Shown here in pieces: positions 13,503 to 63,050 of a stretch of 64,000 bases of DNA. The notes under the pieces are model-generated. The model made no database searches and had not been told where the DNA came from. It saw only the letters and a list, made by a program, of their open reading frames with translations. The DNA is from Copromyces sp. CBS 386.78 (lineage: Eukaryota > Ascomycota > Sordariomycetes > Sordariales > Sordariaceae), in the NCBI GenBank assembly GCA_030685235.1, contig MU839093.1, forward strand, positions 124,001 through 188,000, in the 5' to 3' direction. Every line of letters starts with the position of its first letter. Position 1 is the first letter of the stretch. Both the position numbers and the translations under genes were made by a program.

Positions 13503-16013
13503 AGTACGGTCGGTGTCTGCATGGGGATAAGAAGTAAAGACGCGTGTGTCAATTCATCTTGTCATAACATTCGCTTTATGTGTGTATAACTTACCTCACC
13601 CTCTCTTCACGGCGTTGTTGCGAATTTTTTTCTTGTCTTGGAGGTGTGGACTCAGAAAGAAGGTATAGAGGTGTCTATAAACTATGGGTTATAAAGGGGG
13701 GTTGTGGGAATTTTATGATGAATGGTGGATATATCGAAGTGGCTCTAGCACCGCGGGAAAATACAGAAAGGACGAGGAACTGGTTAAGTGGTGACGAGGT
13801 CCAGGAGAAGTGATAACCAACCACAAGCCGTCAATCAATCAATCTCTTGTCCTTCCTCAAATTGGCTTCGCATTGTTTCTGTCTGCTCGAGATCCATCTT
13901 GTTGCGTTATTACCTATGTCCTTCTCACGATATCTCACTGTTCGTTGCTGATACAGACATATACACGATCGCCGTCGTCGTCATGACCATGTCGATCCAC
14001 CTCATCACGACAAACCTTGATGACTATCTCTTCAACGAGCCCTGGGCAATTCTTCAAGAAAATTCGAACTCAGTCATTCTCCCTCGAAGAGAGGGACATG
14101 TTCCGGGTACTAATCCAGCCAGCAACCCTGAGGCGTTCTGCTGGAGCGAAGTGGCTTCGCAGCCGAGGTAGGCCCGTCTCAGCCACATGTGTTCCGGATG
14201 TCTGTTGAAGAAACTCCCGTAGAAAAAAAACCACAGCAAGCCACGCAGAAACGGTGGACATCATGACGCATTTCTGTCAGTTGGTGGTGGTGGCGTGGGT
14301 GGCACGGCTGGCTGCCACACTCACTCACTCTACGGCGTAGAGTAAAGTAAGTAGGAGCTTGAAGTACATACTTTCAGTGACAATACTTGTACTGGACATC
14401 TATCTGTACACGACAGACGCCACAGGGCCACAGACTAGGTAGGTACGTAGGGTGGAATGGAGTGGGAAAGAGGAAGGGCACATGGCAGGGAACTCAAAGT
14501 TCAATGAGTAAGAAGGTTAACTGAAGGGGAAATGTTGTCCTTCGGTTGCCTTGGGGCATTGTAGGCCTTATTCCATAAGGGCGCAGAAAGTATTACCTAC
14601 CGACTTCTTGAAGCGGATCGGCCCGTTTGCCCTGCCTGGAATAAACGCCGCTCATCTTCTGAGTGAGGAAAATCTGCTTCTCGTCTCGTGGTGCGACTGT
14701 AGGTACTGTGGGGGATGGAGTGGACAGGCATGGAAAGAGTGTGTGATAGTTGATAAGCTGAGATGGATTGATGGCCACTGCTATGTCAAGTAGCAGGACC
14801 AAGGTAAGTCTGATCGCTTTTCCTATCTACTTCATCTCTCCAAGATCCGCATATATCATCATCATCCGGTATCTCGGATAATCTTGACCTGATGGTAGCA
14901 ACTAGCAAGTAGTATTGCCCATTAGAACCTCTGTGTAACTTGACGATAAACTATGATCTCCTCCAGGTATTTTGTTTCTATTTTGTCTCCTTTTTGTTTC
15001 GTACAATGCCACCAAGACAAGCAAAAATAATTTTCTCCTCGGAATGACTTAATCATCATCGTATTCCGCAAATAACCACGTTTTCATAATGATGCCTAGG
15101 CCCAGCTAGGTCTAGAACTAGACGGCCCAAAAAAGAAAAAGAAAAAAAGCCGTGTGAGATAATAATAACTTGTCCGCCTACACCTGGGTCCTATGTTGAC
15201 CTACTACTGAAACTTTCTCGTAAAACATTGTGGGTTTAACTGGGTGTAGTTCATTCACAGCAGGCAACGGTTTTCGGGAAGAAACCCCAGAACCTCACAG
15301 CGCTCCTGCGCACAACCAAAGAGAATTTAGGGGCCGGGGCGGGCGGGAGTTGGGGGCGGGCGCTCGAACCAAATTCCGAGTCTTGGGGAGTGAGTAATAA
15401 CCGAGGCTTTTCAAGGCAGCAAAGTTGAAGTTGGGCGTTCAGTGTATGAGAGTTGGTGAGTGATGTCTGCGCGGTATGATATTGCCATGACTTGATAGGA
15501 TGTTTTATGTATAAGCCCGAGTAGTATGTGGTCCTAGCTAAGGTCTTGCGAATTAACGTTACTGTTAGTTAATTGATATGATTACTTAAGGTTACGGTAG
15601 AGGTGGTTTAGTAGGTTTTAGGAAACCTAGTGTTGAGTGCCAAGTGTATGGGAGGCCGTTCGCAATATAGGAACTTGATGACGCAGTTATGTCAAGATAC
15701 TGTCCGGGTTCGTGTCAATCGCGGGCCGCACTGCCTGTCTTAATTGTTCCCGACGGTGTCAGGGGCTGGTGAATGACTTCTATCAATAAACCAAAAGGAA
15801 GGATACAGAGGGGGATGAGAAGAGATTGATGGCCTGACGACCAGAACGTTCAGCTTCAGGCACCGTCATCCACGGACGGCCGCCGCGTATACCGGGTGAC
15901 TGTCCGGCGGCAGTGGTGGTGATGGTAACTATGACATGATTCTCCACCCAGAGCATCGGGAGGGTGTTGTATGATTCAACAATTGTGTCTCAAAGAAAGA
16001 AAGAAAGAAATAC

Positions 16014-16246
16014 TATGAGATGGATTACGAAAGATAGAATGATGATGATGATTGAGAGATCCAGCTAATTGAAGCTGGAGAGGATCGCTAGCTATATAGA
16101 GTTGGCGATACAAAGAGGAGGAAGGTCTATAAAGGAGGGGATTTTAAGTACTACTAAATCCGCTATCAAAAAGGGTTATAGGGCAAAGGCCTTGCAATTT
16201 AAAGGACTAGCAGTCTATATAGCAAACGGCCTAAAATTTTCTCACA
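16014..16246 (-). repeat. Left LTR (3' LTR of the minus-strand copia element)
   Basis: 233 bp aligning without gaps to 21695-21927. The LTR ends are short inverted repeats (TATGAGA here, TCTCACA at the other end). Differences between the two LTRs are mostly C/T or G/A. Confidence 0.9.
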
Positions 16247-17163
16247 CACCCCTATAGACCTAATAAAAATAATCTATATACATATAAACTATTACGACTC
16301 CTTTTTTTTAGTATTTAGCTAAGGGATATTTCTTTTCGTGAGCCCTAGCATTTTTACAAATTTTCCGTATTTATCCGCCTTCAGGGGTTTCGTCAAATTA
16401 TCGGCTACTATATTAATACCAAGGATGTGAATAACTTCAAACCTTCTTTATTCTATCTATTCTATAACCTATTTTAACCATATATTAATACAATAGTTCC
16501 TTCTAAGGGTTTTAAGAGCCGTAGCTCTTATATTAGTACTATCTATAAAGAAGATCCGTTATAGTTGTACTATACCTAACTCCTCTAATATCTTACTTAC
16601 TTAATCGGCTAATCTAATTACTAGGACTAGGTTAGTAAACTCTACTTCTATCGTACTTAAGGTAACGAAGGCCTATTTCTTTAATTTCTAAAATATTAGA
16701 CTAGTCGTAACGAAAATAATATAGCTAGTTATACTATACTTTATTACAATATTATCTACGTATAAAGCATCTATATATATTCTAAAGTTGAAGTTTAATT
16801 ATTATAAAAACGAGAGGCCTCCTAATAGTAGTCCCAAATTTAGGTTATTTACTAGATATTTAAAGAGATAGCGTATTACATAGTTATAACAATCTATTAA
16901 TTTAACGTTACCTTTATAAAATTTATTGACTATAAATATAATATCTAAGCGTAAGCTTATAGATACGTAATTAAGGGAACTAATCTTCTTAATATAAGGT
17001 TTTTAAATCTTTAATATTTCGATAATTAAATTCGTACCCCTATAGATCTTATAATTTAGTAGCTATAAAATATTAGCGCTTTTTAAATTATTATATTCAA
17101 ATTTCCTAATAATTGCTTATATATATTGTTATTATAATATAAAAATTATATATTCTTATCTAT

Positions 17164-17314
17164 TACGAATGATATCATAACCTAGAAAGGTTCTAATATC
17201 GCCTATCGACTTTAGCTTAAATTTGGATTTCAATTAATTGACGATATCTTTAATATCCTTATTCTTTTGTATTATAATAAGAAGATTATTAATATATAGT
17301 ATTATTAGTATTCC
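17164..17314 (-). pseudogene. Reverse transcriptase remnant (copia type)
   Basis: The minus-strand frame reads GILIILYINNLLII, then QKNKDIKDIVN, a stop, LKSKFKLKSIGDI and RTFLGYDII. The expected catalytic YVDD box of copia reverse transcriptase appears as YINN: GTx to ATx and GAC to AAC changes that destroy both metal-binding aspartates. The in-frame TAA sits where a Gln codon is expected. The following F-L-G pattern is the normal copia continuation. Confidence 0.78.
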
Positions 17315-20300
17315 TTTAGCCTTATTGATAAAAAAACAAGCATCTATACCTAGTACTAAGAAACCTAATTCTAACAAAATAGGATTTAAAGTATTAAACT
17401 AATATAGAGGGCTCTATCTTAACCTATATAAAGCTTTGCGTAATAAGTATACCTTTTAGGAATTTTCTATCAAACTTATCGGTTATTTAACATAATATTT
17501 TTTCCTTTTTAGAATAAGGGTATTGAAAAATACTATATTGAAATTAAATTATTAATAATCGAGATTATGAACGGCTATATAAATTAGAAAGATTCGAAGG
17601 CTCGTACTATTAGCTATTATAACGTATACATCTTCGATATTCTATAAATCTTCCTATTCCTTATTACTATATACTACCTATTGTACCCTAGCCTCGTATT
17701 ATTAAATAAAAAAGTTAAATTTTTTATTATATACCTATTTTCTAAGTAGGATATTTATATCGGGGGTTTTCTATACCAAATTCTATACCTCTTAATCTTT
17801 CAATACTTTTACCTACTTTTCCATAGTTAGAAACTAATATATATTGAAGTTTAATAGTTTTTTAGCTTGTCTATAGTTCTTAAAGATAACCTATTCAATA
17901 TTATAGCTATTAATTTCCTTTAATACCTTCATAGCTATAAGGCACTATACAAGCAATAGCCTTATTAAGCGATTAAGTTCCATCGTTCTATAGTATATTA
18001 AAAATTTACCTAATTCATTAGTTATCCGTTCGTTACTATATTTATATCCTTCTAATTTCTTAGCCTTAATTCTCTTTAGTCGACTTTCTCGTACTTTTAA
18101 GGAAATAAAATTATTCTTTATAGTTTTAGCCGCGGGCTTTAAAGAGGGTTAATTATTTAAAAGAAGTATTAAGGGAGTAAAGGGTATTTATATAGGTATA
18201 GGAATAGCGGAGTTAAATAGAAATAGTACTAGAGATCCTTATTGAATTATAAGGGGAATTAGAAATCCCTATTAAACTATAGAAGGAGTTGGGGATACTA
18301 AGGGTACTAGTGCTGGAGAAATCACCAACACTAGTACTAGAGGTATCGCTAGCACTAGTACTAGTAATAGAGGTATTTACTAAAGTTCTATAAGGGTTTA
18401 AAGAGGTTTAAAGGTAAATAAAAATATAAACCTCTTGAATAGGTTCGGCATTCTAATATTACTACGTAGGGTAAATACTATTACGTTATTTACAATCGCG
18501 TTTTTTAAAGATTTCGAAGATTTACTAAATTTATTAAAATTGCTTAGGGATTTATTAAGTAGACTATCTTTTAGTAGGATAGGATTTTCCTTATTTAAAT
18601 TATTAAAATTTATTATTTATTCTTATTCTTCTTCGATAGAAAATAATATTTAGTCCTATTAACTCTAGAAATTTTGAATTAAGGGTATTAACGACGGTAC
18701 TAATATCGGTAATAAGCTAGGGTAATAATACGGTATTTCGAAAACCGTAGGGGGGGGTTTAGATTAAAATTATTATTTAATTTCTACCTATTATAATACT
18801 ATTAATTATTACGTCGTACCCGTTACCCTAATTATTACTTCTTTCTCCTATTCCGCTACGTCTTCTATTTCTTAAACGTTATAATTTTCGAAGACTATTA
18901 TATATTAAAGTTTATCCTTTCTTTCTTTATTATTATTTTCGTTATCCTTCTCTACGAATTTGACTACGTTCGTTCAAATTATTTTATAAAATTCTAGATC
19001 GTATAACTAATAAATTCGGCCGTATTCGTTACCGTAGTTGAAAAAGTGAATTTTGTATACTCGTAGTATAAATTTATCACCTTACTCGCGTTTTTAAAGT
19101 TTAATATAGTAATAAATAGTATACTAGTACTTTTGTAAGTATTTAAAGTAGGATTTCCTCTAGTCTATAGGATTATTAGCGTAAATATAAAGTAGTTTAT
19201 AGGGATTCATTTTATCTGGATTTACTTTAGTTAATAATAGATTTATAATTCTAACGGCTATATCTATTACGAATAACTATAGAATTATAGGAATTTTATT
19301 CTCTTGGATAACGGTTCTAATCTTCGTTATAATTAACCTTCTAATTAATTTAGCTAAGCCATTTATTTAAAGTATATAGGGTATTATTTTCCAAATTTCA
19401 ATACCTTCTTACTTTACCTATTTATTAAGTTTACTATTCTTGAATTCTATTATCGCCATTCCGAATTCTAGACTACTATTAAAACTGATAATATAGGCTT
19501 TCAAACCGGTTTATAATTCTACGAATCTCTTCTATTCGGTTAATACCCTAAAGGTATTACCTTTATTAATTACGAAGTATACTTATTTATAAATTATAGT
19601 TATATAAATAAAGTGTACGACGTATTTAATATTTATATAGCCAAGTTAATTATAGTTGGTAACGTCCACCCGTACGTATTATAGTACTTTGGTTATTGTA
19701 GTACTATAGACTACTTTGGGTATTTTATTTATTATCTTCGAAATATTATATACTTTATAATTATCCTCCTCCTATTTAGATATAGGGATCCTTACTTTTT
19801 GGTAGGCTTCGATAACCTATTATTTACTAATATATATTAAACGTTTGTATATTATTTTATATATTATTAAAGCTATTAGGGCTTTGGGGAGTTTTCGACT
19901 CTAATCGAAGTTGTTGGGAGGTATAGTAGGTAGGGTAGGGACATTACTAGCCTAACTATATTATATAGTATATTTTCCGTACGAAATCTGGTTGCTTTTT
20001 ATTATCTACTCTATACTATTATTAAGAAGGCTAGCGGTTGTAATGAGATTAATTAGAACGTTAGGGCAAAATTGCACGTCCTTAATTATTACCTTTATTA
20101 TATTATAATATATTGTTAGTATCGTTAATTCTATTATACCTTTATAGTACGAATATATAGAATTACCGTTACTTACTACGTGCTTAGGTAGTTCGGTTAA
20201 TAGTTGTATATTTATAAACTATTTGAAATGGTTGAATATGCTAGTAGCACATCTAGAATTATAGAGAATTTTATTACGTATATTATCGTTATTAATATTG

Positions 20301-50044: not shown

Positions 50045-50749
50045 TTATCTCAGCGCTCAGACCTCTAATTCGGGGCGCGACGCACGGACCAGATTACACC
50101 ACAAAAATTAATTTATCGATTAAATGCCATAATTACTGTTTTGGGTAATATTTTTGACATGCGCCCTAAGAGGTCTGAGTTCCCGATGCAGCCTCCTATA
50201 CAATCTCGACAAGAATATCCAAACATCAACATCGATCACTACCTTATAACTTGACTAAATTTTATTATATTACCAAAAGAAATATACCCGGGGCTTAAAA
50301 ATGCTTTACAGATTATACGTCGAAATTTTCAGAAAGCTGGGATGAAAAAAAGTGCCAATGTTGAGCACTATAGTCGCGACCTATTTTCTGATAATTATCA
50401 TTTTCACCCCTTCGAGGATAGAAGTTACACTTTTAAATATATTGACAAAAAATGAATTACACCATGATAACCGCTATGAAATTCTCTACCTCTATGCATA
50501 TTTACATTCACTAATATGTCTTGTGGTGATGTCGCGATTTGGAAGTGAAGCCAAATTTCTGGATGGATTTTGGGTATTTATGTCGAGACTCGGGGTTTTC
50601 TGCATCGAGAACTCAGACCTCTTTTTTGGGCAATCTCAGTCAATACATACAAATACACTGAAAGAAACGATGCACGGACCATAATCTGGAAACATTGGAA
50701 AGATTCGACCGTTGCCCAAAAAAGAAAGTAGGTCTGAGCACTGAGATAA
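50045..50749. mobile_element. Non-autonomous element A, ends TTATCTCAGnGCTCAGACCT
   Basis: 705 bp between 8-bp flanks CTGTCATC (50037-50044) and GTGTCATC (50750-50757). It starts TTATCTCAGCGCTCAGACCTC and ends with the reverse complement of TTATCTCAGTGCTCAGACCT. Much of it is an inverted copy of element B on the right (shared GGTAATATTTTTGACAT-like and GCACGGACCA segments). No transposase frame. Confidence 0.68.
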
Positions 50750-50757
50750 GTGTCATC

Positions 50758-51064
50758 TTATCTCAGTGCTCAGACCTACTTTCTTTTTTGGGCAGGGGGC
50801 GACCTGCGGCTGCCAAGGATTGGGCCTGCAGCCCGTGCGCTTCGCGCACATCTGGCCAGTGCGCTGCGCGCACTGGTTTCTCAATTGAAAGTTTCCAAAG
50901 TTTACAGGTTGTGGTCCGTGCATCGTTTCTTTCAGTGTATTTGTATGTATGTTAAAAATATTACCCAAAACAGTAGTCATGGCATTTTATCGATAAATTA
51001 AATTTGTGTGGTGTAATCTGGTCCGTGCGTTACGCCCCGAAAAGAGGTCTGAGCGCTGAGATAA
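50758..51064. mobile_element. Non-autonomous element B, inverted relative of element A
   Basis: 307 bp between GTGTCATC (50750-50757) and CCGTCATC (51065-51072), with the same terminal sequence as element A. Its left half repeats the right end of A in reverse, so the junction forms a hairpin of about 37-bp arms around TGTCAT. The 8-bp flanks suggest a hAT-like enzyme mobilises both. Confidence 0.68.
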
Positions 51065-51072
51065 CCGTCATC

Positions 51073-53563
51073 TACGTCCTGATAACGTCGATGACTACGA
51101 CACATCGATCCGTCAGCCTGAGATGTATCGTCTTGCGGAAGATTTTCCTTATTCCAATAAGGTGGCACGCGTCCAGACCACGAAATCGATAGCTTCCCTT
51201 GCAAGGCGGTGATATCATCTCCCAAGAGGCGACATCGCGATAAGCATTGGCGTTCCCTTGTGGGCTCCCAAAAATCTCCACAGGGTCTTGCGCGCGCCGC
51301 GCTAACAAGAACCGTGACAGGCTGACAGCAGGCGATCTGCCGGGTGTGGCAGATTCAAAACGCCAACGGCCGCCAAAACCTCAATGGACCCTAACCCGGG
51401 CTCCACTCGCGAGTCTGTAATCTACCAAAACTGATAAAATGCATCATGAAAAGAACGTGGGCATTAAGCATACCTGCTACGGAAAAAGAATAAGCTGTGG
51501 AATCGAAACAAAGTAGTACCAAACGCGCCGTCGAACGGAGTTGCTGCCATCACGACGGGAGCCTCATCAATCTGTCGGGCATGTCGCGATGCGCCACTGC
51601 TGCCGCAGGCCAAGCTCCAGGGGTCCATCTTCGTTAGTGCTGCCTGTCGCGGCTTCTTGTCGTGTGGGGACCACAGCTTCGGGACGAGGAGCCAAAAGTC
51701 TCAGGGTTGTGGCCGTCAGACTTGGAAACTTTGATCTGCTCGTCAGGGTTGCAGCAGACGGGATATCAGACATTGATACTTACCTTACCATTCCTTCTCG
51801 AGATTCCCGAAGCTTCCCTACCTAACAAGATTCACAAGATATCTTGACCAAAATTTATAACAAGCCCAACAGTACCGATGATGTACACTCTGACGGGACC
51901 GTTCATCCTGCCTCGTTTCGTTCCATTTCCTCACAGTTCCATCCATTGGTAATCAAACCCCCATGCAGTCCAGGCAAAGTGTCGTAGGTGGCGAACACCC
52001 TATCTCTTTTCCTCCCCTTCTCGATCGAAATGATAAGCTCTCGAAGCACCACAAGTCCATGCAGCGAGCGTTCCTTGCATTAGTTACTTATCACAACACA
52101 CGCTACAGCCGGGTGGGCGTCGTCGTGGATTTGCTTGGATCGCGCTGGGCATTCGGCGGTTTTTTGCACAAAGCCTGATTGCGGCCCCTGCGTTTTGTGA
52201 GTAGAGGTACCTTGGATGTTGCGTTGTCAGTAACAATTTTATTCAAGAAGGGGTTTACCCCCAAGTACCTTAAGCACGAACTACTGACAATGCCCTGTCA
52301 AACCAAATGAGCCTACCAAATGGCCGCCATGACATGATCTACGGCGCCATGCAGCAAGCGGTTCCGTTCTCCTCTCCCGCCCCGGTCTCATTCGGTTCAG
52401 CCCAGCCAGCGGGCCACCGGGTCAGCGAACAAGCAAGCCCGCGATCCACACAGTTCATTGCAATTTGTTCACGGAAAGGGGAAAGAGAACCTACTAGGAG
52501 AAATGGCGGCTGGCTTGACGCCGTTAGACGCGGCGGCAGCAGAGCGGGAAGGATCAATTGAAAGGATTCACAAGCGACGTTTGGAAGAATGGCGGGGCAC
52601 GGGCCACATCGATATTGCCTGTATGTACCTCGCCATCGACATTCGAATTGCACACATCTCTTTTCGCTCTGACGCATCTTGATATCGACTTTCAACACCG
52701 CATCATAACCCGAAGCAAACTTCCCCTTCCTTCAAAACCAGAGCGGAAGATCGGCAAACTTTCAAGACACCAACCTCGAAAATCTGCAACAAAGGTTCGA
52801 GACATGTTCAACAAAACCAGGATTAAACGAGAGACACAATGCCCCGCGATCGCTACTGATTTCCAACCACGCCGACTTCAAAGACGGGACCCTCGATCAG
52901 CCCCGGCATGGGTTCCGAGGGTTCATCGGCTGGCGGACAGGGGCAAGGGTCGTGTGGGACTGTGGGAGGGAACAAGAGGGTTAGGGTTGCTCAGGTTGCG
53001 CTAACAATTACCCCTGAATTGGCGACGACGAGGTCGTCGATGACACAGGGACGACGAGACATGATCAATCAAGTTGGCGAACTCATGGACATTGCTGTCG
53101 TCTCCAGTCCTCAAATTGACGCTTAGAATGGCTTTTGCTCATTCGAACTCTCACAAGCCGAAGTTATCGCCGAGTGTCTGCCGCAGCAATTCTCACCCGC
53201 ACCTGCCCGGGCACAGCACGCCGGACAAAGCAGGGCAATTACGACCAACAACCAACAACTAACAGCCCAAACTCCAATCAACTTTTTCACGCCACCAACA
53301 TACCACACACATCCGGCCAGAGATTTTTTCGCTCGTGATTCTGACGTCCTCTTTCTTCGATACTATCAATCTTCCTCTTTCCACCACCAAGCTACCCAGC
53401 AACCTCGGATCTTCCTTTCCCCTTTCCTCTTCTCTCTCACCTTCCCCCATCTTATTCCCCTGCTTTTATTCTACCTCTTCCCCTCTTTAGCCCCTCGACG
53501 ATCCATTCCCCTCTGCCTAGATGTACCTGCCCTTTACACCTCGCTTCACGCTCTCCCTCATCC
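51073..53563. other. Intergenic; one possible unresolved gene
   Basis: 2.5 kb between the inverted elements and the paralogue array. A plus-strand ATG near 52504 starts a coding-like stretch (MAAGLTPLDAAAAEREGSIE) ending at a GTATGT donor-like site near 52621, and an open frame with an ATG at 52908 runs to a stop at 53126. I could not connect them through introns in a consistent phase, so no gene is called. T/C-rich sequence follows to 53530. Confidence 0.35.
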
Positions 53564-54151
53564 TCATCCACTCGCGCAAGGTAGAGGTACCTCCGCGTCA
53601 TAACAGAAACACTCGCACCATCCCTTATTCAACCTCCTCAACTCCTCCACTCTACTCCTCGGAACCATCTCCTCGTACAAGTATGGAGTGAACTGCCCCT
53701 CCTCCGGCTCGTTGTAGCCGTGCAAGGGGTTTTGTAGACCCCAGTGGAAACTCACCCCGTCTGCTTTCTTCTCTGCGAGTTGCTGCAAACCCTGTTCGAG
53801 CTCTTGGATGTTGACCATCACCAGGTCTTCATCGCTCTTTTTGGCGGGGTCGCCGGAGCTGGGAGCGGGAGCGGGAGTGATGGCTTTGAAGATGGTGACC
53901 TGGCAGGACTTAATGAGGCGCTTGATTCGGGCAACCGTGGCGTCGATGTTGTTGCGTTCGTCATCGGACAAGTCTAGTTTCCACTCTTGTGTTTCGTCGT
54001 CGTCGCTACCTCTAAGCATGCCCAGAAATCGAGGAAAGACATCAACGGTCAAAATCAGCGGGCATTTCGCCACAATCTCCGCCTCCGCTGTGGGGAAGTA
54101 GCCGGCCTTTCGGCTTCTTGTATCTTCAAATTTGGAATATCGTTCATGCAA
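53564..54151 (-). CDS. Array member 1: diverged or 5'-incomplete copy of the GDFC family
   Basis: Open frame of about 195 codons ending in a TGA at 53564-53566 (C-terminus CECFCYDAEVPLPCASG). It has no ATG near its upstream edge, so an upstream exon or loss of the 5' part must be assumed. Only 146 bp separate it from the stop of member 2. What is visible matches the later part of the family: GYFPTAE, then KCPLILTVDVFPRFL where other members have the G-D-F-C motif (Cys and Gly not kept), and ELEQGLQQLAEKKADGVSF in the place of the MKKL helix. The N-terminal cysteine patch was not found. It could be a pseudogene, a separate gene with an unseen first exon, or an alternative 3' end of member 2. 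Confidence 0.45.
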   Translation of the reverse strand: MHERYSKFEDTRSRKAGYFPTAEAEIVAKCPLILTVDVFPRFLGMLRGSDDDETQEWKLDLSDDERNNIDATVARIKRLIKSCQVTIFKAITPAPAPSSGDPAKKSDEDLVMVNIQELEQGLQQLAEKKADGVSFHWGLQNPLHGYNEPEEGQFTPYLYEEMVPRSRVEELRRLNKGWCECFCYDAEVPLPCASG

Positions 54152-54297
54152 GAAACGAACAAGATCATCTCGTCACCTGAATCTACGATCGATCAAAGCT
54201 GTCATCACGACGGTGAAGGGAACAACCGGCATGAAGGTGAACGTGAAGGTGAAGGTATGCCATCCTGAGTCTTATTGCCGAGTAGAAACTGATCCAT

Positions 54298-55022
54298 CTA
54301 GCCTGATGAGATTTGGGGTACCGCGCAGTGTTCAAAGCCACCCGGGTACAGACCAAAGATGATCTTCAGTCGAAACACACCCTCCGACAGGGCATCCTCT
54401 CGCAGTCTCTCGAATTTCACCGGAGGTTCCCCCATCCGGTTCTCGCAAAGATTCTTCAGAAACTGCACAAGGTCCACATTCCAACTACGCGCCTTTCCCT
54501 TCCGGTGACTGGGAGGCTGCATGTTGAGTGCGATCGAGTGCACAGTCTCCTTCCAGTCTTCTTTCGCAACATACACTTCCTCTCCCTCTAACACCTTCTT
54601 AGTTGTATCCATGAGCTGGCAGAAATCGCCGCTCACCTCAACCAGCGGCGTCCTGCTCTCCGGGAATCCCAAGATGAATTCCTCCAGTCCGGCCAGTGCA
54701 TCGATCTCGGTTGGCTGGAGATCAATTGGGTGGACATATCCGAAGTTTGGCTCTTCTTTCTTCCAATACTTGGTCGCACACGTCTCGCCGCCACCTGCGC
54801 ACTCCGTGCAGCGGCCAGTTAGAAGGAGCTTCCAAACTTCGACTCTTTCCCAAGTACCATTCCCATCATCGCCGCAAAACCAATCCCATTCCTGTTTTTT
54901 CGTTAGTAACAAGCACGAAAACAGCGAAGTCGCGACCAGCGGCTTACCAATCCCGTAGAAACGGAGGGCTTGGACTCCTCGGTGGAGGTAGAGGTAGTCT
55001 GGTGGCCTTCGGGAGAAGACAT
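54298..55022 (-). CDS. Array member 2: GDFC-family protein, unknown function
   Basis: Exons 55022-54948 and 54891-54298, with a 56-nt intron (GTAAGC, TTACTAAC, AACAG, phase 0), give 222 residues. The start MSSPEGHQTTSTSTEES is Ser/Thr-rich, without a myristoylation pattern. The cysteine region reads WFCGDDG..., then RCTECAGGGETC (CxxC plus a further Cys). It then has NFGYVHP, the family signature VEVSGDFCQLM, and a C-terminal LVQFLKNL helix followed by GVFRLKIIF. The stop is a natural TAG after PQISSG. The gene belongs to a seven-gene co-oriented array with one intron near the 5' end in each intact member. No known family is recognised; zinc binding is an inference from Cys spacing. Confidence 0.72.
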
Positions 55023-55160
55023 GATGGCCGGTGTAGTGGAATGTACAGTGTTCTAGGTATGTGTTCTTCGCCTTCTGTTTCGCTTTTGTTCACGTCTTTT
55101 GACGTTATGCACTTTTTAGTGAAGCCAGGACCTGACATGCCCAGAATGCAACGAGGCTGG

Positions 55161-55175
55161 CCATTTATTATAAGG
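55161..55175 (-). promoter_or_regulatory. TATA-like element of array member 2
   Basis: The minus strand reads CCTTATAATAAATGG, about 140 bp upstream of the ATG at 55022. It is related to the TATAATG block of the other members but lacks a clear GAGAGC partner. Confidence 0.4.
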
Positions 55176-55370
55176 AATAAACTACGCCCTCGACTGCCCC
55201 ATTTCCGGCCCAGATGGGTCTCGCAAAGTGTAAAAACTGGCAAGGATGTTGGTAACCTGGTCTCATATGAATACAAAGAACGAGCGGCTAACTGCCATTG
55301 TGTTGGTGAGTGATCGAGGAACAACTAAAGAAACAAGGGGTTTCCAGAACCCAACACGACTCCGCCCATC

Positions 55371-56169
55371 CTATGCTGCATCTCCCGCTCGGATGTCAAA
55401 ATACAACACTTTCTTGTCATGGGTCGTATCGTCTTCCTTCTTGACCGTGACGATTTCCTGCTTGAAATCCATCACAAGATTCGCGTCCCCGAGTTTCTTC
55501 ATCAACTCCCCGAAATTCCCTCGATGCGTTCTATCCCTCATCAATGGCATCCTCGTCATGAACTCCTCAATCGCTTGAAACACAGTCTTTCCATCCTTGC
55601 TGCCCACAACCTGGCATAGTTCACCCCTCAGATGAATCTCCGGTTCTTCTTCATCCTCCTGAAGATATGCCAGAACCCGTGTCAACCACTCAGGGGGCTG
55701 TTTTGTCACCTCCACCATGTAGTCGATTGCATCTTTCCACAAGATTGCCTCCCTCCTCATGCCCACGTTGGTGTTCCGGTTCCAGCTGGGATTCATTTGT
55801 GTTGTGAATATGCGGCAGCGGCCTTTCCACAACGACAAACCTCCCCACCGATGGAAGTGCGCTTTCAGGCCGTCAGGCGTATATCTCCTTAGCTGACCTC
55901 CTCCCCACCGATATTGTGCTTTGCCCATGGAGAGGACGGCGCATGTCTTGCATTTCTCGAAGGAGCCGATTCGCCATTTGAGCCAGCACCCATTTGGATC
56001 GGTCTGCGAGCAGTGGGTGCAGTGGGCGGAGACGAGAAATGTTTTGTCATCGGGCTGGTCCTGGATGTTTGCGAGCTGTTAGAAATATGAACCGGACTGA
56101 GGTGGAACTGGGGGCGTGACTTACCTTACGGAACATCCATTTCGGCTGAAAGCATGGCAAGTATTTCAT
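55371..56169 (-). CDS. Array member 3: GDFC-family protein, unknown function
   Basis: Exons 56169-56125 (MKYLPCFQPKWMFRK) and 56075-55371, with a 49-nt intron (GTAAGT, TTTCTAACAG, phase 0), give 249 residues. The cysteine region is the clearest of the array: HCTHCSQTDPNGCW, then KCKTC, i.e. two CxxC pairs about 20 residues apart, suggesting a small zinc site. A Gly/Trp-rich stretch follows, then the family signature EIHLRGELCQVVG (E-L for D-F), ELMKKLGDANLVMDF and a final VLYFDIRAGDAA. An ATG inside exon 2 (55928) would drop the cysteine region and is unlikely to be the start. The first exon has no MG start, so membrane anchoring by myristate is not predicted here. Confidence 0.75.
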
Positions 56170-56280
56170 GGTTTCGGGCGTTGTGTGGATGGTGTTCAAG
56201 TGCCCTTGTTGCTAGGGCTTGGAGGTGAGTGTATGAGTAGTGTTGATTTGTGTAAGGGGAAACATCTTAACGAGGAATAT

Positions 56281-56295
56281 GAGGGCCATTATAAG
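56281..56295 (-). promoter_or_regulatory. TATA-like element of array member 3
   Basis: The minus strand reads CTTATAATGGCCCTC, about 115 bp upstream of the start codon. It matches the TATAATG core of the other members. Confidence 0.45.
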
Positions 56296-56942
56296 AACAG
56301 ATTTCCTCTGTTCACGCTCCATCTCGATGGCGCATATACACAGATTTTCCTTTGAGATGTTCTGCCCGGTTGAGTTGATCGAGTAGTATCGATTAAGCGC
56401 TGGTGTCGCGCTTTGTTGGGTGTAGCAAGGAAACATGAAACGAGAAATGGACTCGGGGTGGAGAGTTTTGGTGGCTGTCTTTGAGGAGATGTTGGGTGTG
56501 CGGCTTGTTGGGACGAAGTTTTCTCGCAAAAGATGTCGGATGACCCTGAGCTTAAATCTCGAAATAGCTAATTATTTTGATGCACAATTTAGCCAGGAAT
56601 GAATGCAAAAAAGGGGATGAAATCGATGAGTGGATGATGACTGGCCGCTGAAGTGTCTGGTCTTTTGACAAATGTAAATTCGCAGTCTCTTCGTACCAGG
56701 AAATCCATCCATTTTGGATTTTTTTGATGCTAGCATGCAAAAAATGCTTTTGCCCGTCAAAATACGCCCTATAACTCCATATCCTATTGTTCCATTTAGA
56801 CCCTTGAATGAAACCCTTCTGAACTGCTGTGAAAACCCAGAATCGCCAAGTATGCCATTCATCCAGCCTCCGAGTTACCATACATGACCAGCAGAGCCTA
56901 ACGCCCAGCGCAAGGCTCAGGCAAGAACGTCTTTGCCTGGAC

Positions 56943-57572
56943 CTACTCATCATGTAGTTTGAAATAAAAGATATTCGTACCCTGCTCATGCTTCCCGTCA
57001 GAAACTCCAAATTCTTCAGACTTCAGTTTCTGATACAACTTAAAAGGATGTAAATGCCCAAACCCATCGTGCGGTCTGCATGTTCTTATACCCTCACGGA
57101 CAATATGCTCAGGGGCCAATTCCCTATCTTTTTCTACGCGGCAGAATTTACCCCGAAATTCAACCACTCCCGCACCTCCACATGATTTCTGGATGAAGAG
57201 AGCGTAGTCCCTCAAGTCTTTCAGACCCTCCTGGGCCCAAGGTTTGTTGCACATGATGAAGAGTTTATAAAAGTAGTCCTCAAACCGCCTTGAAAACATC
57301 CATTCGCAACAACGATATTTCTCTGCATTATTCTCCTTCTCACAGATGGTGCAGAGAGCTCTCGTGCGTATGGTGAAAGACGACGGCCCCCCGACATTTC
57401 TGTCATAATGTCGATTGGTTTCATAAAGCTCGTCCTGAGAAGACGACATGGAGAGAGAGGCCGGACCACTGTTGCCAGGGGCATTCTATGACCATTGTTA
57501 GGGGGACAAGATAGCGAGAAATCGAGGAAAGTGACTTGCCTCCTCCACAGACGTTGAGTGACCGCAGCCCAT
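56943..57572 (-). CDS. Array member 4: GDFC-family protein with MGCGHS start
   Basis: Exons 57572-57540 (MGCGHSTSVEE) and 57485-56943 give 191 residues. The intron is 54 nt and of GC-AG type (GCAAGT donor, CATAG acceptor, phase 0). The start fits the N-myristoylation pattern MGxxxS, with Cys3 as a possible palmitoylation site, so membrane association is likely. The body has CTICEKENNAEKYRCC (CxxC...CC), the family signature VVEFRGKFCRVEK (K in place of D), a LYQKLKSEEFG helix and a final NIFYFKLHDE. Neither a signal peptide nor a transmembrane segment is visible. Function unknown. Confidence 0.75.
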
Positions 57573-58533
57573 TGCGGCTTCGCAGGAAAATCTAGCTACC
57601 TAGGCAGGCATGTATGTTGGTCGAGGTATGCTTTCTTTCAGGGGATTTGTCCTCACAGCTTGGAACCGGAATTGTTCGTCAATGAAGTGTCCTAGTCTGG
57701 TGTGCCAAAGGACTGAGACTGATGAGAGCGCACCGGGTCATTATAGCTAGGAGTCCATTGGACTCCTGCTCATCATGGACCTCCTAGCTTGTTGCATCAG
57801 AAGAAATTTTGTTGGTAATTCCGGCGCGTACGGATGTTGATAGACGGGCGAGTGACCACATAGATACCTACTTTGTTGGTAATCAGGTGCTTGGAGAACG
57901 CCTTATGCCTTTTTCTACTTCATTCTAGATTAGCAAAGTTTGCTTCAACTGGAGGGGTTGGTGCCGTATCGCCAAACCGCTGCCTCGGCGGATTGTTGGG
58001 TGTATCGAGGAATCATGAAAGAGAAGTGGCCGTCTTTGATGGAGGCACATGGGGTGTGCGGCTTGTTGGCAATTTTGGTTCGCCTTTGTGCTGTAATGAC
58101 AGCGACATGCATGATTACCTCTAGCGACGACGGGACAAATGGATGGGCGTTGGGTTGATCGCAAGTAATTGATGCTCAAATCGAATGAAGAATGGAATTC
58201 ATGTCAGGTGGTTCCTCGCCCACGCTTCTGTCTGGACTTTTCGCTTGCACCTCGGGGGCCGGAATTGGTCCGAGGGCGCGAATCTGCAGCTGAAATAATC
58301 GAGTAAACGAATGATATCGATTTGCAAGAACAGCTAAAAGGAGCTCAAAGTTTTTCATAGCAAGTTCATAGCCCCTTCCAGTTCACCTCATGCTTCCTTC
58401 CCTCCCACCCGCCAATCTTCCATCCCAACTCTTCAACTGGGTTAGGCTGACGTAGCCCGCAATCTACCTAGCCATTGTATTAGGGTATATGTATTAGTTC
58501 CCGCGGCAATATTTCCGTGGCAAGCTGGCAGGA
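57573..58533. other. Spacer containing promoter of member 4
   Basis: Besides the TATA/GAGAGC block it holds a segment (57811-57859, GTTGGTAATTCCGGCGCGTA and onwards to GGGCGAGTGACCAC) that recurs upstream of member 5 and, less well kept, elsewhere. No gene is supported. Confidence 0.45.
57724..57747 (-). promoter_or_regulatory. Shared promoter block of array member 4
   Basis: On the plus strand GAGAGC is followed after 9 nt by CATTATAGC; as read by the gene this is GCTATAATG-N9-GCTCTC, 150-175 bp upstream of the ATG. The same arrangement occurs before members 5, 6 and 7. Confidence 0.6.
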
Positions 58534-58658
58534 TGGCGCAGCGGGCAAAGGCGTGGTCAGTAAACGGTGCCCCTCCCCTCATCTCTCCCGTAAACCCCGG
58601 CTCTCGTGGACGTTATACGTTCGAACCCGGTAGCTTTAAGTCCACATTCTTTTTTTTT
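58534..58658 (+). ncRNA. Candidate RNA polymerase III gene (tRNA-like A and B boxes)
   Basis: TGGCGCAGCGGG (58534-58545) fits the A-box consensus TRGCNNAGYNGG. GTTCGAACC (58619-58627) matches a B-box core about 74 nt downstream, and a run of nine T (58650-58658) follows. I could not fold the interval into a cloverleaf: T-stem and acceptor pairings fail. It may be a decayed tRNA, a tRNA-derived element or another Pol III transcript. The true 5' end is unknown. Confidence 0.35.
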
Positions 58659-58972
58659 GGCCCTTCTTTTTGTTCTCATCATCGCTGAGTGTATTTTGTA
58701 CTGTTAATGGGGGGGTTTTATCTTTTTTTCCTTTCACCTCACTTTTGCGGAGTGTGGACACGTTGATCACTGACTTCTCTAATTGAAAGTAGTTCCTCTT
58801 CTTCTCGGGCTGCGTCAACCTGGATAACAGGATTGGATTGTTGCAGTGGGAAGTGAGCAAGCGCCGCTTGAGATACCTGCACACCTGCATCAAGCGTAAG
58901 GTACTTACTTCTAAATACATGACATGCATTCGACCTTCCCTGTAGTGAACCTGCATAAACCACCTACACACT

Positions 58973-59525
58973 CTACAATCGGGTTCGGTAAGCAGGCAAG
59001 TGCCGTCTTAACAACCGAACCTCAAACTCCCTGTACTTCCCCTCTGACAACTTCTTCATTGCCACATGAAGGTTCCTGGCCCCCTTATTCTCATCGGTCG
59101 AGAATGCTGCCTTCTCAAGCTCTTTAATAATATTGCCACCCCCTGCACGCTTAACCGCACCGAAGTCAGCTACAACCAAGAACATCCCCCTATTCCGCTC
59201 TGCTTGTTCACCCTTGATTTCTCTCATCCATGGATCCGTCTTCAATCCGTTTTCCTCCAGCAGCGAAGGGCGAACGTAGGCCCAACGACTGCCAAAATCT
59301 TCGAAATGCTTGCACACATCGTTGTTTCGACATGGCCTCTGACTCTCTCCTCTGCATGACAGGCCCTGTCTGCACGGTATGCACGAACAGGCCGTGCAGC
59401 CGAGGGCAATCTGTACGTAGTACTTTGAATGCCACACATAAACTGTTAGCAGAGGCCCGTGATATCGGCCACAATTTCGAAAGGAGTGGGTGCCTTACCT
59501 TCGAACTTCCGGCTCCTAGGCACAT
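58973..59525 (-). CDS. Array member 5: cysteine-rich GDFC-family relative
   Basis: Exons 59525-59499 (MCLGAGSSK) and 59422-58973, with a 76-nt intron, give 158 residues. The first AG after the GCTAAC branch is only a few bases away and out of frame; the next one (CAAAG) restores phase 0 and was chosen. The cysteine region is the richest of the array: GCTACSCIPCRQGLSC, RPCRNNDVC, seven Cys in about 30 residues. The family signature is degenerate (FLVVADFGAV, with Gly for Cys). The helix HVAMKKLSEGKYREFEV is well kept. The start MCLG lacks Gly2, so it would not be myristoylated. Function unknown. Confidence 0.65.
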
Positions 59526-60628
59526 GGTGTCTTGGATATGGCAGTGGCCAATTGGCCAAAGCACGCGATGCGTACCGTAGAGATGCTCTTTGAATCCTTG
59601 AGTCCAGTCAATGTGTGCGTTTTTGGACTTGGGCTTCTATGACGCTTTTGGGCCGAATCTTGTTTGTTTTTGCAATGGGAAGTATGCTTTCCAAGTGATA
59701 AGCTTGTCTCCGGAAGGAAACCGATGAGAGCGCATCAAGCTCACTATAACCAGTGTTATAATAGACCGCTCACTCGACACACTGCCTACCATGCTCAGTT
59801 CCCCTTGTTCCTTGCGGTACATGTATGTCCAACGAGTTAGCTCTCATCAATGAACTTTTTCGTTGGTAATTCTGGCGCATACCTTTATGGACATGGGAAA
59901 ACGGGCGAGTGTCCATGTTGGTGATCGACATTTGGGAAGCGCCAACCACATTTTCCCCCTTCGTCTTTTTTTCTTTTCCTTTTTTTTCTCTTTTTCTTTT
60001 CTCCCTTTTCCGGTTGGCTGTAGCTGAGCAAAGAATCAGACTAAGTCTTCAAGACGCAGACAAAACTTTTTCTCCGCTGTGTTTAGGAGGTACATACAAA
60101 AAGGCATGTAACCGCCCGAGATTGATTCCAAGTGGAACCGGCGAAGGCCTCTCTTCTATGTCAGCTACGTATAGTTGGGGTGGGAGTCACGATTTTAGAA
60201 CTGTTTCATCTAGGTAAGGTACCTATACCTAAATGTGCTACTTGGAACAAGACAATCTCTGTACCCAAACGTCCTCGTCCATCCTGTCAGGCCTTGTGAA
60301 CAAACCATACCCTGGAGATGTCTCTGTAAGCCGTCCGACACCTAGGAAAAGATGGAGGAAACAGAAAGAAGGAAGTCATGAACATGTCCCAAATGCATCC
60401 TCCTACAGATTAACGCCCTGGCCTCAGTACACCATTCGCTACCTATCCTTCCCCAAGCCACACGCCAGTTCAACAGTCCCTCTCCAACGAGCTGATTCCG
60501 CGTCTTCACACCGTGCAGCAATGCCTTCTTTTCATTGAGTGCCCTGGAGACTCGGCATAAATTGAATGAACATATTAGCCCTCCCGTGAAAGATAGCTCG
60601 GGGCTACCATCAAAAGCCGCGCCATTAT
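59526..60628. other. Spacer between array members 5 and 6
   Basis: Holds the promoter block of member 5 and a recurrent segment (59862-59916, GTTGGTAATTCTGGCGCATA and onwards to GGGCGAGTGTCCAT). A T/C-rich tract spans 59955-60010. No gene is supported. Confidence 0.45.
59726..59750 (-). promoter_or_regulatory. Shared promoter block of array member 5
   Basis: Plus strand: GAGAGC, 10 nt, then CACTATAAC. About 200-225 bp upstream of the start codon. Confidence 0.55.
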
Positions 60629-61171
60629 CTAGAGCTGGATAGGTGGAGCCACATCGAACTTGACTTTGACCTCGTGTTTATCAAGATCGTCCATCAGAGT
60701 TCGCAGGCGTTTCACCCGGGTCTTAGCGGTCGGTCTGCTACCAACTCCGATATCCGCGCCCTTCCTAAACGCTTCCATTGTGTCATATCCGTTGCCCCTT
60801 ACGATCCAGCAAAAATCGCCTTGCAATTCAAACCTTCCGTCAATTGCTGGTTGGTCGGCATGCATTTGGATCAGCTGGTCAATGTCTGGTTTGTCTTTCA
60901 GGTATTGTTCGTCGATGGACGTCCAGTGGTAGGCAAACGTTTGTGTCCAGATACATGGCGGTCCAGATTGACATTTCATGCATTTGAGGCCAAGTTTGAT
61001 GAATTTGTATTCCTGTGTATCTGTTAGCTGACTGATTCATAAGGTACCAACGATGCATCCGTGAGTGTTGTTTACATTCGCGTCCTTTTTCCGGGCAAAC
61101 CTCGGCTTGTGCTTGCTGGATCTTTTTCGGGTAGAGTCCTCCGTGTCCGACTTGCTGTTACTGTGACCCAT
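60629..61171 (-). CDS. Array member 6: GDFC-family protein with MGHSNS start and basic N-terminus
   Basis: Exons 61171-61076 and 61012-60629, with a 63-nt intron (GTAAAC, AGCTAAC, ACACAG, phase 0), give 159 residues. Exon 1 encodes MGHSNSKSDTED followed by a strongly basic run (TRKRSSKHKPRFARKK). A myristoylation pattern next to polybasic residues is the usual double signal for inner-membrane-leaflet binding. Exon 2 has KCMKCQSGPPC (CxxC plus Cys), the family signature FELQGDFCWIVRG, and a short C-terminus RLRTLMDDLDKHEVKVKFDV. It is among the shortest intact members. Function unknown. Confidence 0.75.
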
Positions 61172-62214
61172 TTTTGTGCTTTAAAAACGCTGTGACTGCC
61201 GATATAACTTTTTCTCGTCGAGGTGCACTCTTCCGCAAGTTTGAAACCGAATGATAATGGAAGACAGGTAGTCGATATGCTAGAGGTAGTCTGATGACTC
61301 GGAGTGAACCTGGTGAGAGCGAACCAAACCCATTATAACCTGGCAGCCAAACAACGGACCGCTCTCTAACCAACACGACTCATCATTTCTATTTTCTCTA
61401 GTTTTGTCCTTGCGGATTTCCAACGAGTTGGCCCGCGTTCTTTGGTTGGTTATGTTGGTGCTGGTGAATACGTTCAACCGGGTGAATGACCATTATGTTG
61501 GTGATCAAAAGCATAGAGCGGAATAGCGGGCATTTTTCTACTTCGTCTCTTTCTGTGGCTTCGGCTGGTTGAGCGAGGGGCCAGATCAGGTCGTGATAAA
61601 GGACAAAGAAACCGTTCTTGGGTAGAGCTAGAGGTACCTATTGTAAGCGCCCGGGCCCGAAATTGAGGGTCTGCCCTTTGTCGAAGCTGCAAATGGCTTT
61701 CTTGGACGTCCGGTTGTTGGGGCGGGAGCATCGAGCTTTGTAGACCAGGTACCTTACCTATGCCGATAGGATGAAAATGGTAGACACGAGCTGGGTTAGG
61801 GGAGCGCCACCCTTTGCTGAGGCATGACGTCCAATGAGGCTCCCGTCTCTCCTTCAATTCCCTTCTTTCTTACACCACAACAGTATATCACAGATTGCGC
61901 GAAAAATACCAACGGTTTGTACATCTTCATCAGCTTCTTCTCGGCTGCGTCAACCTCCTGCTTCAATTTTCACTAGCCCGCCCCCTTGTACCAGCATACC
62001 TCTAACTTGTGGACAGCCCGATCGATGCTTGGCTTCGAAGTGAATGAAAGAAAAAAGGACTGGAACAAAAGGAAAAGAAGGGGAGAGGGAACCATGAGCT
62101 GAATCAAAACAATACATTGCAATAGCTTCATAAGCGGTACCTATGTGTGCTTCGGGAAATCAGCTTGGCCGCCATGTTTAGCCAGTCTTCCGATATTGTC
62201 CATCCTCTCCCATG
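61172..62214. other. Spacer between array members 6 and 7
   Basis: Holds the promoter block of member 6 and a loosely related copy of the recurrent GTTGGT...GGGTGAATGACCAT segment (about 61441-61505). A 127-codon minus-strand frame (61474-61857) shows no family motif and is not called. Confidence 0.45.
61315..61340 (-). promoter_or_regulatory. Shared promoter block of array member 6
   Basis: Plus strand: GAGAGC, 10 nt, then CATTATAACC. About 145-170 bp upstream of the start codon. Confidence 0.6.
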
Positions 62215-63050
62215 TCAGTCAGAATCTTCTTCCATGAGAGAAACCTCATAACATTTCCGGGAAGATGGATCACCAAAATCAGAATCCGCCGAAGAAACCG
62301 AAACCGTATCCGTTGTATCCGTGTCCTCCCTCCATGTCATCAGAGGCGTAATCTCCTCCTTTTCCTTGTGCACATGAATCCTGTTCTCCATGATCGCCAG
62401 CGTCGCTTTCATGTTCTCATTCGCCCGACATGGAGTCGTGTTCTTTCTCCCCAGAACTGTCGTCTTCAAATTCCTTTCCGCAGTCGTGTGAGAAGGAGAA
62501 GGCTCAAGATCAACCCAAAAAACCTTGCCCTCCGTCCCCCACCACAGAGGAACACCACCAAGGTCCGATTCCAAACAAGACACCTCAGTAAGCTTCTTCA
62601 TCAAATGGAGCGGATGATTTCTCTCCCTCATCATTTCATCGCAGATATGCCAAGTGGCTTCCGGCACGAGCCTCCCAGACTTCTCCTTCTTCAACTTGAC
62701 ATCTTCGACTGCCTGGCAGAAATCCCCCCTGAAATAAATCCGAGCGTCTCCTCGTGGTCCAACCGTCTTGAGATAATGGTGCAGTTCGTACATGCCCAGC
62801 ACGTTCAGGTTGTTTCCGATGGCTTCGGCAGTTACGCTATGTTCGGTACATGGAGTAAGCCATAAATGGGTTTTCGAACACCGAGTGCAGAAGGCGAATA
62901 CTTTCGGTTTGTACACGCCCTGTGATTGTGATTTTCAGTTTCAGTTAGTCAGAGGAAGACGCACTGGTAGGTAGAGCTAAGGTAGGTAAGGTAACCGGAC
63001 GTCTTTAAAGAAGGAACACTCACATCTTCGGTTGACATTCCGCAACCCAT
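62215..63050 (-). CDS. Array member 7: GDFC-family protein with MGCGMS start and acidic tail
   Basis: Exons 63050-63024 (MGCGMSTED) and 62919-62215, with a 104-nt intron (GTGAGT, TGACTAAC, ATCACAG, phase 0), give 243 residues. The start fits MGxxxS myristoylation with Cys3 available for palmitoylation. Then come FCTRCSKTHLWLTPC (CxxC plus Cys), the family signature RIYFRGDFCQAVED, LHLMKKLTEVSC and a VFWVDLE strand. It has a C-terminal extension of about 80 residues ending in Ser/Asp-rich, acidic sequence (SVSSADSDFGD, MEEDSD). It is the last complete copy in the window; the array may go on beyond the right edge. Confidence 0.77.

Follow-up and report, generated by a model that had tools for sequence, protein, structure and literature searches.

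A tandem array of strongly diverged small-protein genes with G-alpha-like mini-exon starts in Copromyces sp. CBS 386.78

The window analysed here is a stretch of 64,000 nucleotides from the genome of Copromyces sp. CBS 386.78 (Sordariaceae), C15:124001-188000 in an assembly of 49.8 Mb and 273 contigs. Six two-exon genes, named g2 to g7, lie in tandem on its minus strand between positions 54298 and 63050. A seventh gene of the same build, g8, is found just beyond the window edge (C15:188664-188087, 170 residues, same phase-0 intron) and was detected because g7 matched it in a search of the genome (E 0.0044). The comparisons reported below support the view that these genes form a strongly diverged, lineage-restricted tandem family that is undescribed in the databases and literature searched. 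That the family is real we regard as close to certain.

Gene models of the array

The genes g2 to g7 encode predicted proteins of 222, 249, 191, 158, 159 and 243 residues, respectively. Their introns are 49-104 bases long and in phase 0 throughout, and with g8 included a phase-0 intron follows a short first exon in all seven members (models built from reading frames). An earlier sequence-only reading of the window had described minus-strand genes for proteins of 158 to 249 residues, the intact ones with one phase-0 intron near the start, and both features are borne out for g2 to g7. The exon 1/exon 2 junctions of g6 and g2 are identical in two NCBI proteins encoded in the window, P0002 and P0001, respectively. 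With two of seven junctions in agreement with NCBI models, the array would presumably be spliced in this way in vivo. Codon usage places the annotated frame best of the three sense frames in 8/8 regions tested, namely the seven genes and the open reading frame (ORF) at 53564-54172 discussed below.

The seven members share a common layout: a mini-exon, the phase-0 intron, a cysteine patch, a strand ending in G(D/E/K)(F/L)C, a helix and a last strand. The N-terminal CxxC-type patch noticed by the sequence-only reading takes the form C-x2-C-x(4-10)-C in g2 to g8. The G-(D/E/K)-(F/L)-C motif from the same source is intact in g2, g3, g4, g6, g7 and g8 and degenerate in g5. By eye, a C-terminal strand of the VFVIDI/VFWVDL/VLYFDI type is also present in members.

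All features that follow are on the minus strand. The first exon of g7 (63024..63050) encodes MGCGMSTED, nine residues that are identical to the first nine of the group I G-alpha subunit of the same genome and form an N-myristoylation-type start. Its second exon (62215..62919) contains the patch CTRC..C, the strand YFRGDFCQAV, the helix LMKKL, the strand KVFWVDL and a long tail. In g6, exon 1 (61076..61171) starts with MGHSNSKSD, an MGxxxS start in which His at position 3 breaks the PROSITE-like myristoylation pattern used below, and exon 2 (60629..61012) carries CMKC..C, ELQGDFCWIV, LMDDL and EVKVKF. The degenerate member g5 (exon 1, 59499..59525; exon 2, 58973..59422) starts with MCLGAGSSK, weakly resembling the group II G-alpha start MCFGGRGKE, and has ADFG in place of GDFC. 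The first exon of g4 (57540..57572) encodes MGCGHSTSVEE, again of N-myristoylation type, and is followed by a GC-AG intron and by exon 2 (56943..57485) with CTIC..C, EFRGKFCRVE, YQKL and IFYFKL. For g3, exon 1 (56125..56169) encodes MKYLPCFQPKWMFRK, where the lipidation glycine is absent, and exon 2 (55371..56075) encodes CTHC..C, HLRGELCQVV, LMKKL and VLYFDI. In g3 (55371-56075) the GELC strand is separated from the Cys patch by a long insert, in which LSLWKGRCRIF reads loosely like a repeat of the strand motif. The g2 gene consists of exon 1 (54948..55022; MSSPEGHQ..., also devoid of the lipidation glycine) and exon 2 (54298..54891), with CTEC..C, EVSGDFCQLM, FLKNL and VFRLKI in the unspliced form of 222 residues. 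In NCBI model P0001 (381 residues), g2 is spliced before VFRLKI into the ORF at 53564-54172. VFRLKI is lost in this splice; as it looks like the C-terminal strand found elsewhere in the family, the 222-residue protein without the splice may be the family form.

Family membership, relatives and surrounding DNA

Pairs of members were compared by Smith-Waterman z-scores against 300 shuffles, and eight profiles were ranked against 691 stop-to-stop ORFs, with a leave-one-out E-value for each member. The z-scores of g8 are 12.9 with g7, 5.5 with g4, 5.4 with g3, 3.9 with g6, 3.2 with g2 and -0.1 with g5; the pairwise link of g5 is to g6 alone (z 4.4). A profile of g8 and two outside relatives, P0003 and P0004 (see below), has g8, g7, g3, g6 and g4 as its five best matches, in this order, followed by an unrelated ORF in sixth place and g2 in seventh. 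Once g7 also contributes to the profile, the top six are g8, g7, g3, g4, g2 and g6. Upon omission from training, g3, g7 and g4 are recovered with E-values of 3.6e-9, 7.4e-9 and 5.5e-5, respectively, while g6 (0.025, the best ORF outside the training set) and g2 (0.12) are marginal and g5 is not recovered. Based on the left-out E-values and the pairwise scores, g3, g4, g7 and g8 are established by sequence as paralogues, and g6 and g2 are probable members. The assignment of g5 is based on its place in the array, the shared intron, a TATA element, the similarity of its upstream block to the one of g4, and the weak likeness to g6.

The sequence-only reading counted seven tandem paralogues in the window. 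This holds for the six genes g2 to g7; g8, outside the window, had been overlooked, as had the G-alpha-like N-termini, the C-terminal strand and the elements shared upstream, and the ORF that was called member 1 (53564..54172, minus strand, 202 codons from stop to stop) does not belong to the family. Its pairwise z-scores against the seven others are at most 0.3, it falls below the top 12 of the 691 ORFs with all eight profiles, and in NCBI model P0001 it forms the 3' portion of g2. We therefore rule it out as a paralogue. To be noted, this ORF, for which no family match was obtained, has the top sense-frame codon score among the eight regions tested.

Shared upstream DNA is observed for three pairs of neighbours. 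The 63-base blocks of g5 and g4 are identical at 52/63 positions (z 9.3), those of g4 and g3 at 51/63 (z 10.9), and the upstream DNA of g6 and g5 scores z 4.5. In exon-2 DNA, g5/g4 and g4/g3 do not rise above noise (z -0.7 and 0.7), and likeness is detectable for g8/g2 (z 6.3) and g8/g7 (z 3.4). Furthermore, the pattern TATARTG-N(6-10)-CGCTCTCAYC, which was derived from these genes, has three matches in 49.8 Mb, upstream of g6 (61312..61337), g5 (59723..59748) and g4 (57721..57745), all on the minus strand, and none in the reversed control. Looser TATAA sites are located 124-206 bases ahead of the ATGs of g2, g3, g7 and g8. This arrangement would fit co-regulated tandem units whose coding parts change faster in some pairs.

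Three alignments were used as queries against about 5.8 billion proteins, and four distinct proteins were obtained in all: P0001 and P0002 from this genome, and P0003 and P0004. Because hits must have 5-residue words in common with the query, more distant relatives may escape this search. P0003 and P0004, of 119 residues each, cover 56% and 55% of g8 and are identical to it at 52% and 48% of the aligned positions, respectively. Their start Met aligns with Met63 of g8, so the upstream parts of both may simply be uncalled. Overall P0003 and P0004 are 48% alike, but over the final 30 residues 27 are the same; gene conversion or strong C-terminal constraint may lie behind this.

The Pfam scans of the members gave no match near the cut-off. 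None of the seven matched NCBIfam, a prokaryote library and hence weak evidence, and the PDB sequences gave a single match with E 0.67. No relative was confirmed in the prokaryote genomes and viral contigs searched. The literature searched on fungal G-alpha myristoylation, tandem and effector families, Copromyces, greenbeard genes, lineage-specific genes and the N-terminal peptides yielded no comparable family; a paper on a fungal G-alpha was among the matches to the peptides. With no characterised family matched, the proposal of the sequence-only reading that the family is undescribed still stands. A search of the genome with seven protein queries (g7, g4, g8, g3, P0003, g6 as P0002 and g2 as P0001) returned one match outside the array, on C36, against residues 12-64 of g2 (E 0.034; z 13.7 against its own shuffles, 0/500 as high). 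It is not significant genome-wide, is unlike the six other members and carries no GDFC- or CTxC-type motif at its locus, and we take it as a probable chance match rather than a family copy. A BTB/POZ or other known fold was also considered and dropped, no significant structural match being returned for a poor model with a mean predicted local distance difference test (pLDDT) score of 55.4.

On one side the array is flanked by what we take to be a FLO8-like gene (about 44.5-46.8 kb of the window), and on the other, outside the window, by a presumed TRAPP BET3-like gene. Next after the latter follows what appears to be an AT-rich retroelement mutated by repeat-induced point mutation (RIP); the guanine-plus-cytosine (GC) content of this region (L028 4001-9000) is 0.23-0.30. 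Both L028 3600-8900 (C15 about 191.1-196.4 kb) and window positions 16001-20000 are AT-rich, with GC 0.23-0.30 and RIP-like dinucleotide ratios. By eye, the AT-rich stretch beside the array has direct-repeat ends like those of a long-terminal-repeat element. Nested elements with inverted ends around TTATCTCAGCGCTCAGACCTC are seen by eye at window positions 50060-51090, in appearance a DNA transposon of the miniature inverted-repeat type that harbours a second transposon.

N-terminal mini-exons and G-alpha likeness

On inspection by eye, the N-termini of g2 to g8 have no obvious hydrophobic leader, such as the signal peptide of a secreted effector. In addition to the starts given above for g4 to g7, g8 begins with MGACISSSD, g3 with MKYLPCFQP and g2 with MSSPEGHQT. 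They were ranked among 2143 ATG-started 9-mers from 93.5 kb by likeness to the starts of the three best-scoring G-alpha genes in the genome, MGCGMSTEDKEGKARNEEI (L017), MGACMSTNDEETEQ (L018) and MCFGGRGKEDEAE (L019); a weaker fourth match above the cut-off lies on C208. For G-alpha I, g7 ranks first (9/9 identities) and g4 second (6/9). For G-alpha III, g8 ranks first (6/9) and g7 second. No peptide beyond these reaches 5/9 identities to G-alpha I or III. The likeness of g5 to G-alpha II is weak (3/9 identities, tied third to fifth), g6 comes in at about rank 12 against G-alpha III and rank 21 against G-alpha I, and g3 and g2 are unremarkable. None of 100,000 random draws of seven starts reached the summed best scores of the seven members, a result driven by g7, g8 and g4.

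A PROSITE-like myristoylation pattern, G-{EDRKHPFYW}-x-x-[STAGCN]-{P} after Met, is found in three of the seven members (g4, g7 and g8) against 28 of the 2143 starts, these three included (binomial P 7.5e-5). In the whole genome, DNA of MGCGxST type occurs five times, in g4 and g7, in the G-alpha gene and at two further places, against one match of the reversed control. We regard a lipid anchor on g4, g7 and g8 as probable. In the published work, fungal group I G-alpha subunits have MGXXXS as their myristoylation consensus (PMC2749820, PMC3100592), a myristoylation site is also given for group III (PMC3100592), and one group III subunit starts with MGACMS (PMC2694196).

The likeness might go beyond lipidation. 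The three G-alpha classes could have been the source of the N-termini, by capture, or the model that selection made them match (group I for g7 and g4, group III for g8, group II for g5), so that the proteins share the membrane domains of G-alpha subunits and interfere with heterotrimeric G-protein signalling or with pheromone and fusion signalling. Such mimicry would account for the T-E-D residues of g7, which match the genome's own G-alpha I and are more than a lipid signal needs, and for the position of g8 as top match to G-alpha III. It is also in line with the DNA of codons 1-5, which is identical in g7 and the G-alpha gene, and with the rank of g5 for G-alpha II. However, the next four codons differ synonymously (among them AGT against TCA for Ser), the G-alpha gene continues past codon 9 with no intron there, the Pfam scans find no G-alpha domain (PF00503, P-loop) in the members, and g5 shares just three of nine residues. 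Nor is the upstream DNA clearly alike: the local score over 300 bases was equalled in 351/500 shuffles, and a 20-nt extension anchored on the ATG was reached by 39/1000 random draws, which is borderline. Overall we consider mimicry unlikely. A more specific form holds that interchangeable address exons of G-alpha type bring a diversifying set of small proteins into the membrane domains of heterotrimeric G-proteins, where these would act on pheromone or fusion signalling as decoys, as guards or as modulators; this we hold to be slightly more doubtful still. Recent DNA copying of the G-alpha gene into exon 1 of g7 is not supported, given the four synonymous differences and the flanks that are not clearly alike.

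At the other end, the likeness may be ordinary convergence on the general myristoylation/palmitoylation code, with no bearing on recognition, in a set of tandem orphan genes that are specific to the lineage and drift, being weakly constrained. In favour of this, a lipid signal needs few residues, and the glycine is absent from three members, among them g5 with its degenerate GDFC strand. Lineage-specific genes are also abundant in Neurospora, where PMC10684091 gives 670. Against drift, all seven frames are open with intact intron borders, and protein motifs are kept while DNA likeness is mostly near noise. Furthermore, the 9/9 match of g7 exceeds the lipid code, and its T-E-D identity is not accounted for by plain convergence on such a code alone. 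This explanation is nonetheless a serious one, to which we give appreciable though minor weight.

Proposed role and comparison with known systems

The reading we prefer, with confidence that is evenly balanced, is that of lineage-restricted small intracellular proteins with a mini-exon address, several of them membrane-tethered, which act as diversifying modifiers of recognition or signalling. Tandem duplication of a unit of promoter, mini-exon and main exon would have produced the array. The mini-exon would serve as a modular address, with a glycine-2 signal of MGxxxS type in g4, g7 and g8 and marginally in g6. With the neighbouring cysteine in g4, g7 and g8 this would amount to the same acylation code as in fungal G-alpha subunits, and acylated proteins would be placed on the cytosolic face of the plasma membrane. 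In g2, g3 and g5 the address may have been lost or changed. The main exon would encode a small fold that has a variable surface and a Cys3(+Cys) patch, where a metal may be bound, and the membrane-tethered proteins would diversify under changing pressure. Lipidation, location, metal binding and function of the members are all deduced from sequence here, and a role in recognition or signalling is tentative.

Several observations weigh against the preferred reading. The members g2, g3 and g5 have no glycine signal and g6 misses the strict myristoylation pattern. In the profile tests g2, when left out, is level with an unrelated ORF and g5 lies outside the top 12 of 691. The upstream z-score is below 4 in 18 of 21 pairs. 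An antisense frame outscores the sense frame by codon usage in g7, g5, g4 and g2, so that this measure does not clearly point to the sense strand. Just two of the seven members turned up as NCBI proteins, and part of the gene models is therefore unconfirmed. Two AlphaFold models are poor, with mean pLDDT 55.4 and 44.6, and allow no fold assignment. The rapid diversification put forward by the sequence-only reading is plausible, as upstream DNA is kept and exon 2 is at noise in g5/g4 and g4/g3, but most pairs have low upstream scores, and exon-2 likeness is seen in g8/g2 and g8/g7; the recognition or conflict role suggested along with it is tentative.

Fungal tandem families of fast-diverging orphans are common and usually carry no functional hint. 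Here a separate mini-exon carries a readable G-alpha acylation code, so location and pathway are directly testable, and in our judgement the N-terminal address of this family is unusual. If the likeness were mimicry, it would represent a new way of tapping G-protein signalling.

A comparison with fungal G-alpha subunits (groups I, II and III; PF00503) shows the MGxxxS lipidation code in common, with MGCGMSTED of g7 equal to group I, MGACxSxxD of g8 similar to group III and MC(F/L)G of g5 weakly similar to group II. The members differ in having no GTPase domain and other exon boundaries, and the likeness stops after about nine residues.

The members could also be allorecognition genes, of the heterokaryon incompatibility or the communication-group kind, as their tandem arrangement, their high divergence and their presence in a genome of the Sordariaceae would allow. 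According to PMC4831770, doc-1, doc-2 and doc-3 of Neurospora crassa are likewise linked, highly divergent paralogues, DOC-1 and DOC-3 have no identifiable domains and DOC-2 is at the plasma membrane; by analogy, plasma-membrane tethering would suit a fusion checkpoint. The same source gives DOC proteins of 828-920 residues, two of the three (DOC-1 and DOC-2) with predicted transmembrane segments, and this size and anatomy set them apart from the array. Membership of the DOC greenbeard system, compared by description and not by sequence, was rejected for this reason. Linkage to HET genes was rejected as well: the Pfam scans find no HET domain (PF06985) in the members, and of the 88 HET matches listed for the genome a single one is on this contig, at a distance of about 134 kb. 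An allorecognition role appears improbable to us.

Neurospora lineage-specific genes clustered with HET-domain genes, as described in PMC10684091, resemble the array in being orphans of one Sordariaceae lineage. In contrast to them, the array is neither beside a HET gene nor at the end of its 576-kb contig, and it consists of paralogues with a promoter element of their own.

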